64,000 nt of DNA from Devosia psychrophila (GTDB lineage: Bacteria; Pseudomonadota; Alphaproteobacteria; Rhizobiales; Devosiaceae), in NCBI RefSeq assembly GCF_000971275.1, contig NZ_LAPV01000228.1:1-64000 (forward strand). The letters are read 5' to 3'. The notes under the pieces were generated by a model. The model ran no database searches and was not told the origin of the DNA. It saw nothing but the letters and a program-made list of their open reading frames with translations. Shown here in pieces: positions 8,087 through 10,422 of the stretch; position 1 is the stretch's first letter, and every line of letters starts with the position of its first letter. The position numbers were made by a program, and so were the translations under genes.

Positions 8087-8668
8087 ATGTGCAATGACTA
8101 TGAACAGCATGTGAGCCCGGCCGATTACCGCAAGGCGATTGCGGCGCTGGAACTGGCGGCGGGCGATGACGCGGCGCTGGTCGCGGCTGACGATGTGCGG
8201 ATCGGCGATATGGGGCCGGTGCTGCGCGCGTCGGGCAATGGCGTCGAGCTGGTTTCGATGCGCTTCGGCTTTCCGCCGCCGCGACCCAAGGCCGGGCCGA
8301 TCTTCAACTTCAAGTCGGACGGCCGCCACTTTGCGGATTCTCGTCGATGTGTCGTGGTGCTGTCGGGATTCTTTGAATTCACCGGCACCAAATATCCCAA
8401 GACCAAGCACCGCTTCGCCCTCAAGGGGGCCGCCGTGATGGGCATTGCCGGGCTGTGGAGCGAAGACGCCGACGGCGCGCTGAGCTTCACCATGTTGACG
8501 ACGGAGCCGGGGCCTGACATCGCGCCGGTGCATGACCGGCAGGTGTGCGTGCTGCAGCCCGAAGACTGGGCGGCGTGGCTGTTTCTCACCAAGCCGGAGG
8601 AGGAACTGCTGCGGTCGCTGCCGGCGGGGTCGCTGGTGGTGGAGGTGGTTAGGGAGGGAAAGGAGTGA
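8087..8668 (+). CDS. SRAP-domain protein (HMCES/YedK family), divergent
   Basis: 193 residues starting MCNDY. SRAP proteins use Cys2, exposed after Met removal, to form a covalent link with abasic sites in single-stranded DNA. Start chosen to leave Cys at position 2. Other catalytic positions are recognisable: Asn in PIFNFKSD (NARxE equivalent, altered), Glu in LSGFFEF, His in VHDRQVCVL. The NARxE loop is divergent (NFKSD), so it is a remote member. Upstream is a gap with an inverted repeat; downstream begins the hairpin/GIY-YIG region. It likely protects or processes damaged DNA. Confidence 0.85.
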   Translation: MCNDYEQHVSPADYRKAIAALELAAGDDAALVAADDVRIGDMGPVLRASGNGVELVSMRFGFPPPRPKAGPIFNFKSDGRHFADSRRCVVVLSGFFEFTGTKYPKTKHRFALKGAAVMGIAGLWSEDADGALSFTMLTTEPGPDIAPVHDRQVCVLQPEDWAAWLFLTKPEEELLRSLPAGSLVVEVVREGKE

Positions 8669-8721
8669 GGGGGTGATTGAGGGGTGATCGCACTTAACTC
8701 CCATGTTCCCCCAACTTCGAT

Positions 8722-8818
8722 GTCATCCCGGCGAAGGCCGGGACCCATCCTGAGGTCTTTCCACTCTCACGGCACGCTCGATCATCTCAGGATGGGTTCC
8801 GGCCTTCGCCGGAATGAC
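8722..8818. repeat. Hairpin element, family A copy 1
   Basis: 97-bp imperfect palindrome. The outer arms GTCATCCCGGCGAAGGCCGG and CCGGCCTTCGCCGGAATGAC pair with one or two mismatches, and inner arms CCATCCTGAG / CTCAGGATGG pair as well. The loop is about 30 bp. It lies 72 bp before the GIY-YIG start. Same orientation as copies 2 and 3. Confidence 0.9.
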
Positions 8819-8890
8819 CTTGTGGGGGTGTTGGCCCTGGTGAACATTAACGGCATTGTAACTGGTGGGTTACCATGTTTGATATCGCTC

Positions 8891-9187
8891 ATGGGCAAGA
8901 CTTACATGGTTTACATCATGGCAAATCGCAAACATGGCGCGGTCTATACTGGCGTGACTGGCAATCCGGCTGGTCGTGTCTGGCAGCATAAGAACCATGT
9001 GTTCAAGGGTAGCTTCACCGACCAGTGGGGTTGCGACAAGCTGGTGTGGTACGAAGTTCATGACGACCCGGAATCCGCCATCATCCGCGAAAAGCGCATC
9101 AAGGACTGGAAGCGGGCCTGGAAGGATCGGATCATCGAGGAGATGAACCCAGATTGGCGGGATTTGTCGGCTGATGTGTTTGGCTGA
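8891..9187 (+). CDS. GIY-YIG nuclease family protein, single domain
   Basis: 98 residues from ATG at 8891 (an upstream frame runs through the hairpin and is rejected). The GIY-YIG core is complete: YMVYIM (Tyr8), AVYTG (Tyr19 and Gly21), Arg29 with QHK, and catalytic Glu67 in IIREKRIK; a helical WKRAWKDRIIEEMNPDW tail follows. This is the small stand-alone type (UPF0213/YhbQ-like), a DNA nuclease fold. It is placed almost symmetrically between two same-orientation 97-bp hairpins (72 bp before, 74 bp after). Such an arrangement suggests a link between nuclease and palindromes; this is inference. Confidence 0.88.
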   Translation: MGKTYMVYIMANRKHGAVYTGVTGNPAGRVWQHKNHVFKGSFTDQWGCDKLVWYEVHDDPESAIIREKRIKDWKRAWKDRIIEEMNPDWRDLSADVFG

Positions 9188-9261
9188 CCGGGCCCGGTGT
9201 CCGTTGCGATGCCATCGCACGCTTGGGTTTAGACACTGTCGCGATGCTATCCCGTCCCCGG

Positions 9262-9360
9262 TGTCATCCCGGCGAAGGCCGGGATCCATCCTGAGGTCTT
9301 TCCACGCTCACGGCGCGCCCGATCATCTCAGGATGGGTTCCGGCTTTCGCCGGAATGACA
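9262..9360. repeat. Hairpin element, family A copy 2
   Basis: Same element as the copy at 8722, in direct orientation, extended by one pair to TGTCAT...ATGACA. Differences are scattered and partly compensated across the stem (for example GGCTTTCGCC against GGCGAAGGCC keeps a G-T pair). It lies 74 bp after the GIY-YIG stop. The rest of the 9188-9660 gap holds copy 3 and about 160 bp in which I see no gene. Confidence 0.9.
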
Positions 9361-9517
9361 TCGTTGGGGGTGGATAGGCTGATGCCCGACCAAGTCGGGT
9401 GAGTTGACCACACTTTTGTTTTGACGGGTGGTTCGACAGGAACCTCGTGGCGACCTCGGTCCGTGAGCCTTAGGTGTGGCGCTTCACGAGCCCACCGTGC
9501 GCCACTCTAGCTCCGAT

Positions 9518-9613
9518 TTCATCCCAGCGAAGGCCGGGACCCAGCCTGAGGTTTTCCGCGCTCACGGGGCGCTCGATCATCTCAGGATGGGTTCCGGCCT
9601 TCGCCGGAATGAC
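9518..9613. repeat. Hairpin element, family A copy 3
   Basis: Third copy, same orientation, with more changes (TTCATCCCAGCG start, CCAGCCTGAG inner arm) but the same loop core CTCACGG-GCGCTCGATCAT. It ends 47 bp from the stop of the unknown gene on the minus strand, so it marks the border of the ImmA/IrrE unit. Confidence 0.88.
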
Positions 9614-9660
9614 ACCGCGGGGGTGGTGTTGGCACTGCCGCCGAAAACCTGCACTTACTA

Positions 9661-10383
9661 TTACGCTGTAAGCCTAGAGGCACTTGTAGATTTTGGCGTG
9701 AAACTAGGCCAGCGATCAGCTATTTCTTGACAGTTCGCTTCGATGGCTCGGCGAATTTGCTTGTGCTTGAGGGGAGCAAAGTGAAGCTTGCGAGCGAATA
9801 CATCCGACACAACGCACAGGCTAGGTTCGGCAATGCCAACATGCCCCAGTTCGATCTCTGCAAACCAATGGAGAATGGCTGCAAACGAACGCCCCTCGTC
9901 TTCGGGAAGAACTCGGCTCGCCATCAGGCGGGGCTTGAGCACACCTACATCGAAAGCCGTGCGTCCCAGTCGGGGCGCGGTTAAGACGTTGGTTGGATTA
10001 ACTCGGACGGTGACGTTCGATATGGCGAAATTGCGAACGTTATGATCGAAGGGAAAAGCATGGGCGGCGAGTAGGATTTCGGAATGATCTAGATGCCTTA
10101 TGTGCTCGAGGGCATCGAGTTGCTTCAGAGCCTTTTTATCATCCTCGTCGCTTTTTGCTTCTCGCTTGACTAGCTGTTCCTCTAGGCCTTTCAGCCGTCC
10201 GTCATCACGGCATTGGCTAGCTACATACTGCCGATAGGCACCGGGAACTTCCCCGTACCACAGCTTAAACGGTTCAAAAGTGTCGTCGTGCATAAGCTCC
10301 AAGATTGCCCTGCGGCGTGCCGCCGAAGCAAAACAATACTCTGCCAGTAAGCTGGCTGAAATCACGGGTGGATTTGTGCTCAC
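9661..10383 (-). CDS. Uncharacterised protein paired with ImmA/IrrE peptidase
   Basis: 240 residues from GTG at 10383, chosen over the upstream TTG because AGGAGG sits 8 bp before it. I do not recognise a family. The protein is soluble, with no signal peptide or membrane helix. An N-terminal helical part (ASLLAEYCFASAARRRAILE) is followed by a charged stretch rich in Lys, Asp and Glu (about 75-90), a beta-rich middle (NFAISNVTVRVNPTNV) and a helical C-terminus (HKQIRRAIEANCQEIADRWP). It follows the metallopeptidase by 39 bp on the same strand. The local base composition looks more AT-rich than the core genes on either side, which suggests acquisition. Confidence 0.7.
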   Translation of the reverse strand: MSTNPPVISASLLAEYCFASAARRRAILELMHDDTFEPFKLWYGEVPGAYRQYVASQCRDDGRLKGLEEQLVKREAKSDEDDKKALKQLDALEHIRHLDHSEILLAAHAFPFDHNVRNFAISNVTVRVNPTNVLTAPRLGRTAFDVGVLKPRLMASRVLPEDEGRSFAAILHWFAEIELGHVGIAEPSLCVVSDVFARKLHFAPLKHKQIRRAIEANCQEIADRWPSFTPKSTSASRLTA

Positions 10384-10422
10384 CGTTTCGACCTCCTGTT
10401 TTGACCGCAAGATTATGAACGT

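Follow-up and report, generated by a model that had tools for sequence, protein, structure and literature searches.

What is a gene for a small GIY-YIG nuclease doing between two copies of one hairpin? The arrangement occurs in Devosia psychrophila, in a stretch of 64,000 nucleotides (the window) from a genome of 4.52 Mb in 239 contigs. The original prediction described two 97-bp palindromes in the same orientation around a 98-residue GIY-YIG gene, and this description is borne out (palindromes at 8722-8818 and 9263-9359; match of the protein to PF01541 at E=3.3e-14). The features of the locus, with both monomers read from the window sequence against the CGTC REP definition in section 6 of PMC3733652, are:

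8722..8818, + strand: REP dimer 1, 97 bp, with arms at 8722-8754 and 8786-8818
8721..8747, + strand: CGTC-type REP monomer (as read from its sequence) at the edge of dimer 1, with tag TGTC (8721-8724), an 8-nt stem with one mismatch, loop GAAG and tail CCA
8891..9187 (stop included), + strand: gene for the 98-aa GIY-YIG nuclease (PF01541), proposed to be REP-associated
9263..9359, + strand: REP dimer 2, 97 bp, in the orientation of dimer 1 and 95% identical to it
9262..9288, + strand: CGTC-type REP monomer (likewise) at the edge of dimer 2, with tag TGTC (9262-9265), a perfect 8-bp stem ATCCCGGC/GCCGGGAT beginning AT, loop GAAG and tail CCA
9519..9613, + strand: third copy of the REP dimer, 95 bp, 93% identical, outside the unit

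Dimer 1 is separated from the gene by 72 bp, as predicted, and the gene from dimer 2 by 75 bp (the prediction gave 74 bp). The third copy that had been described is present and begins 159 bp, rather than 157 bp, past dimer 2. The palindrome arms are 33 nt long and 94% complementary, with 31 nt between them. Folded as single-stranded DNA, the first element reaches -36.4 kcal/mol (z=-9.4), a value equalled by 0/200 shuffles. A known structured RNA is rejected, given that Rfam has no match at E<=0.1 within 8600-9760, and intrinsic terminators or sigma-70 promoters are rejected as well, none having been found in the same interval. Directly 5' of the unit is a SRAP-family gene (PF02586; 8030-8668, + strand). 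Just past the third hairpin, on the - strand, a gene without a Pfam match (9661-10410) adjoins a gene for an M78/IrrE-like peptidase (weak PF06114; 10423-10986).

The element is dispersed in its own genome. A blastn search with the 97-bp sequence returned 47 rows, the palindrome being counted on both strands; full-length elements occupy 11 places (the third copy from base 2), and the remaining rows are half elements or the opposite strand. The core motif introduced below has 28 hits in this genome. The 97-bp element had no blastn match in the plasmid collection.

To judge by its sequence, the monomer at 9262-9288 fits the published description of CGTC-1 REPs. As set out in parts of Di Nocera et al. 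(2013; PMC3733652), CGTC REPs have an unpaired terminal tag CGTC (or TGTC, CCTC), a stem of 8-9 bp beginning AT, a loop of 4-5 and a tail CCA, and they are mainly HH dimers. The same parts include Neisseria dRS3 in the CGTC-tagged superfamily and equate it with CGTC-1. The window repeat has the tag, the 8-bp stem beginning AT, the 4-nt loop, the CCA tail and many dispersed copies, often as dimers. Each window palindrome is an inverted pair of REP monomers. The difference lies in the dedicated nuclease that we propose here: the main text of the 2013 paper does not contain the word GIY-YIG, describes CGTC REPs as apparently without a dedicated transposase, and asks for future work.

We scanned 136 genomes of the family for PF01541 (best-scoring matches listed) and for the core motif CCSGCGAARGCSGG, which has 0 to 378 hits per genome. 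The gene sample comprised 88 rows of small GIY-YIG genes of the genus Devosia among the matches listed; for 76 rows, flanks of up to 8 kb per side were included. On its own, the core motif is found no more than 400 bp away from 24/88 genes, and it occurs 1.4-1.9 times per kb at a distance of 100-200 bp from the gene and 0.00-0.03 times per kb past 2 kb. Unbiased hairpin detection (stem score of at least 12) found hairpins in 41% of the 88 upstream flanks and 44% of the 88 downstream ones, compared with 3.5% of 720 control stretches, and many genes without the core motif proved to be flanked by other hairpin families.

From these data we derived five repeat families: A (CCSGC-GNAR-GCSGG), B (CTCGGG-CTTGA), C (CCGG-CTYGT), D (CTCACCATGAGG and related sequences) and E (CCGGC-CTTGA). 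A REP motif occurs within 300 bp of 80 of the 87 listed small GIY-YIG genes (leaving out G032_L111_7553, which has a broken frame), compared with 40/703 control windows scanned with the same data-derived motifs. Repeats are present on both sides of 62/87 genes and 4/703 controls, and the two sides share a family in 62/62 cases. Seven of the 87 genes have no listed motif nearby, and three of these seven are a distant clade. Because the five motifs derive from the data, a motif-free test of the flanks was also run: an identical stretch of at least 16 nt joins the two flanks at 60/87 sites (L053, with a short flank, left out and G032_L111_7553 included), compared with 4/860 control windows.

Tagged hairpins give the same contrast. 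They lie within 200 bp, on at least one side, of 40/56 GIY-YIG genes from a gene caller versus 86/736 other genes, and on both sides of 25/56 versus 4/736. For small genes (143) the counts are 15 and 2. The original prediction had proposed counting repeats near GIY-YIG genes and other genes, and this enrichment, the opposite of what it named as a refutation, strongly supports the pairing of small GIY-YIG nucleases with hairpin repeats. Its suggestion that this nuclease family could nick, copy or domesticate the hairpins is supported in part, namely for the link; the acts themselves are predicted. Chance association, in which REPs and small genes both gather in intergenic gaps, would accord with the position of most REPs downstream of coding regions (stated in part of PMC3733652), but only 2/40 small isolated genes have a tagged hairpin on at least one side and 0 on both, compared with 40 and 25 of the 56, and the repeats are family-specific. 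The flank-sharing, hairpin and motif enrichment tests reject such intergenic clustering, and we give it practically no weight.

The repeat family follows the nuclease clade. On a maximum-likelihood tree of 87 proteins (80 labelled, the seven genes without a listed motif being left out of the label counts), 5 changes of repeat family among five families are required, whereas 300 shuffles gave a minimum of 34 and a mean of 42. Same-label pairs of loci share both neighbours in 10/300 (B), 2/28 (C), 2/78 (D), 22/435 (A) and 10/15 (E) cases, using earlier labels. Part of the A and E signal reflects a shared locus, because units lie near the polA 3' end in 20 genomes. With the loci near polA left out, 60 labelled genes require 3 changes among four families (shuffles, minimum 20 and mean 32); linked descent is therefore rejected as the whole explanation. 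The polA side is itself a hotspot: in the 20 genomes of the genus, at most 2.4 kb separates a GIY-YIG unit from the polA 3' end, and these units belong to types A, E and B, chiefly A and E (loci including L056, L061, L065, L069, L079, L083 and L108).

A scan for tagged hairpins in which stem and loop sequence were left free found 400 of them in 139/188 loci, compared with 70/713 control windows; without the 17 loci preselected for similar flanks, a tagged hairpin is present in 126/171. The stem starts AT or AC in 371 of the 400 and the tail is CCA in 265, neither of which was imposed by the scan. Loops are of few types (CTTGA, GAAA, GAAG, GCAG, CTTGT) and stems are variable. On a tree of 131 rows, in which some genes are duplicated and 18 mixed-loop loci were given their commonest class, loop class requires 11 changes (200 shuffles, minimum 39). 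The presence of a clade also goes with more copies of its own repeat per genome (p=2.8e-4 for A, 4.8e-5 for B, 8.3e-5 for C, 4.3e-4 for D; the smallest off-diagonal values are 0.0035 for C clade with B repeat and 0.0088 for A clade with D repeat), although the 'without' groups contain false negatives because the genes come from the matches listed and from earlier labels.

The pairing extends beyond Devosia. One contig-collection scan with closer alignment yielded 80 loci from Alpha-, Beta- and Deltaproteobacteria, gammaproteobacterial genera, Chloroflexi (Dehalococcoidia) and Nitrospirae, according to the record titles. The flanks share at least 16 nt in 48/77 of these loci (the 80 minus L269 and L273, which are cut, and L226, which has an N-run; they partly repeat Devosia genomes already sampled) versus 1/279 controls, and in 36/58 among those with titles other than Devosia. 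Of the 32 records found in the plasmid collection, 5 were chosen for taxon spread and examined, and the flanks share 25-32 nt in 5/5. In Neisseria gonorrhoeae (L277), a GIY-YIG gene lies among repeats that we call dRS3-like by resemblance; this gene has no feature in the incomplete gene table of the collection. CGTC repeats are present on Azospirillum lipoferum plasmid AZO_p3 (L278), where the GIY-YIG unit lies between sufB and sufC. Other repeats flank GIY-YIG genes in Novosphingobium, Planktothrix and Sinorhizobium meliloti (plasmid collection). The unit of the Planktothrix plasmid (L280) is situated between an MmeI-type restriction-modification gene and DISARM drmA. Among further small GIY-YIG loci, 46/48 were located and 18/46 share at least 16 nt between flanks.

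Other small GIY-YIG subfamilies served for comparison. As a negative control, 14 genes from other Pseudomonadota, which we take to be YhbQ-like (the subfamily was assigned from a motif), share at most 11 nt between flanks. The same limit of 11 nt applies to eight genes from a further subfamily, which have a leader hairpin upstream. A small GIY-YIG subfamily of this kind (such as MWYVYILRS...EYVGATxDLKRR) has a conserved upstream hairpin with CTTCGCCCTTCGGGCT or variants (upstream flanks of L171, L172, L175, L178, L187, L195, L025 and L027). Ten genomes contain 0-3 matches each to the exact CTTCGCCCTTCGGGCT pattern, so this hairpin looks like a gene-specific leader and not a dispersed REP. The analysis goes beyond the original prediction in two respects: it finds that the repeat matches a known class, the CGTC REPs, and that the pairing is general and family-specific.

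The original prediction noted that REPs in other bacteria are mobilised by a RAYT transposase and that the only nuclease in this unit is a GIY-YIG protein. PF01797 (Y1_Tnp, RAYT-type) has no match in the window genome. It is present in 5/136 genomes of the family, in which the core A motif is rare (G010, 7 hits; G057, 4; G063, 4; G106, 5; G135, 0); G063 has 33 C-type hits. With PF01797 in only 5/136 genomes, RAYTs cannot account for the repeats of most members of the family and are rejected as the mover there. The unit resembles REPtrons (RAYT/TnpA-REP with GTAG REPs) in that a nuclease gene adjoins copies of its own palindromic repeat. It differs in that the nuclease is GIY-YIG where RAYT is HUH/Y1, and the tag is TGTC (CGTC type) where that of RAYT is GTAG; we found neither an HUH/Y1 transposase gene (PF01797) in the window genome nor a GTAG tag on its repeat.

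Some genomes carry repeats without such a nuclease. In G047 there are 201 A-type and 132 D-type hits (335 in all) and one PF01541 match; its repeats appear to be orphans because this sole match is presumably UvrC. One PF01541 match each is also found in G055 (187 hits in all), G020 (107) and G053 (47). The window genome has three PF01541 matches, which are the gene at 8891-9187, another small gene (C29) and a 670-aa frame, taken as UvrC because of its length; there is no B-type gene among them, and 45 B-type hits are present. Conversely, an A-type gene is present in G012 and G057, where the core A motif has 4 hits. Repeat-rich genomes of this sort would be expected if the gene were a passenger, cargo between REPs moved by an unseen enzyme or by recombination alone, and the search for rival movers covered PF01797 alone. 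However, cargo would not be expected to track a repeat family this closely (the 5 changes on the tree, 3 without the hotspot), or a loop class across phyla, and the usual REP transposase is missing from most genomes. We therefore consider a passenger gene improbable.

Comparison of insertion sites shows that the units are insertions. On the polA 3' side, 30 loci were taken from 70 genomes with a match, of which one was short and 29 were readable. In the first 600 bp, 26/29 relatives have neither a GIY match nor any of the five listed repeat types. The gene is not syntenic without repeats in relatives, contrary to the other part of the refutation named in the original prediction. In the same interval G059 and G025 have a B unit and G032 has a lone B repeat. 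Aligned with G032, the former two have two repeats, the gene and a repeat in place of one repeat, between flanks that are 85-89% identical. One shared downstream region is preceded by different units (A in G083, B in G030 and G052, D in G013), so that a change of gene goes with a change of repeats. At the site of the window unit itself, G065 has a SRAP gene (93% identical) and no gene or A hairpin in the next ~900 bp, and in G058 the SRAP gene is followed by a B unit. Loci of the same type often have different neighbours. Insertion sequences have terminal inverted repeats with a target-site duplication; in B units inverted REPs adjoin the gene, and no target-site duplication was defined.

The main rival to a nuclease that disperses its hairpin is homing into duplex repeats: the nuclease would make a double-strand cut in an allele that bears a REP, homologous recombination would bring in a copy of the unit, and the REPs would be targets and scars. 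Free-standing GIY-YIG homing endonucleases (phage T4 Seg type) are genes that spread into intergenic sites, as these units do, and they typically have a separate DNA-binding domain. The dimers of the window are long direct repeats around the gene, the solo B repeat of G032 stands where G059 and G025 have repeats plus gene, and one site can be occupied by different units, all of which would suit homing. However, a resident REP is not evidently needed, because the 26/29 relatives have no listed repeat at the polA site. Unlike Seg-type enzymes, the protein of the window is tied to a dispersed repeat family and is modelled as one domain, with no DNA-binding extension, and homing on its own does not explain many REP copies per gene. 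Homing thus seems unlikely to us, and we return to the hairpin-dispersing nuclease as the preferred reading.

By its domain and conserved catalytic residues, the protein belongs to the GIY-YIG nuclease superfamily, as sequence and model both indicate. A set of 32 close relatives shows no variation at Y8, Y19, R29, H33, E67 and N86, residues whose catalytic role we take from the superfamily; in D-type proteins the N86 region is missing. An AlphaFold2 model (pLDDT 95.8) predicts a single domain without a separate DNA-binding part. The nearest solved folds according to Foldseek, none at E<=0.001, are UPF0213 proteins and the structure-specific nuclease Slx1, and a sequence search of the PDB gave two weak Slx1 matches. 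UPF0213/YhbQ proteins (1zg2, 1ywl) are the nearest solved one-domain folds, but YhbQ-like genes differ in having no shared flanking repeat (0/14). Purifying selection follows from dN/dS values of 0.02-0.28 in 11/12 pairs with a defined value, several of which have dS above 1.

Such selection, the small number of genes per genome and the likeness to Slx1 would also suit a maintenance role, in which the host would use the nuclease to resolve cruciforms or hairpins at its cognate repeats, and the flanking copies would be regulatory. We regard this role as very improbable, since presence is patchy, insertions are polymorphic, and total repeat count rises, not falls, with the count of PF01541 matches (Spearman 0.64, n=75).

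Our proposal is that the gene product is probably a GIY-YIG nuclease associated with REPs, which would recognise the cognate hairpin and drive the spread of that hairpin. Each clade of small one-domain nucleases goes with a palindromic repeat family of its own, in most cases CGTC-tagged REPs. The nuclease would recognise the folded repeat (hairpin or cruciform) via the unpaired tag and short loop, and would nick it; repair or replication would then copy the repeat into new intergenic sites. Now and then the whole repeat-gene-repeat unit would be copied likewise, and where the flanking copies recombined with each other, the gene would be lost and a solo repeat would stay behind. We infer the reading and nicking of the hairpin from the analogy with RAYTs and the likeness to a structure-specific nuclease, and binding, cutting and copying by the nuclease are predicted on the same grounds. 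For RAYTs, part of PMC8266576 reports that the tag matters and that two of three models tolerate no mutation at certain loop positions. More broadly, we lean slightly towards a new class of mobile system, in which loop- and tag-matched GIY-YIG nucleases would disperse CGTC-type REPs in Proteobacteria (including Neisseria dRS3), Cyanobacteria, Chloroflexi and Nitrospirae without a transposase.

The repeats and the nuclease superfamily are known, and their partnership appears to be new. Titles and abstract starts of the open-access literature, among the matches listed (most subscription papers and all bioRxiv preprints lie outside), include no link between GIY-YIG and REPs. Like PMC3733652, the RepRanger paper (PMC12306157) does not use the word GIY-YIG, and part of PMC9465073 names GIY-YIG and RAYT as separate genes.

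The finding points to a partner enzyme that a widespread class of bacterial repeats had seemed to lack. CGTC REPs include Neisseria dRS3 and intergenic repeats of many Alphaproteobacteria. If the nuclease is the match, REP-type repeats would have arisen with at least two unrelated enzymes. A matched nuclease also allows direct tests of the question, using short oligonucleotides and purified proteins of ~100 residues, and the paired clades, with few loop types but variable stems, may provide a ready set for specificity swaps.
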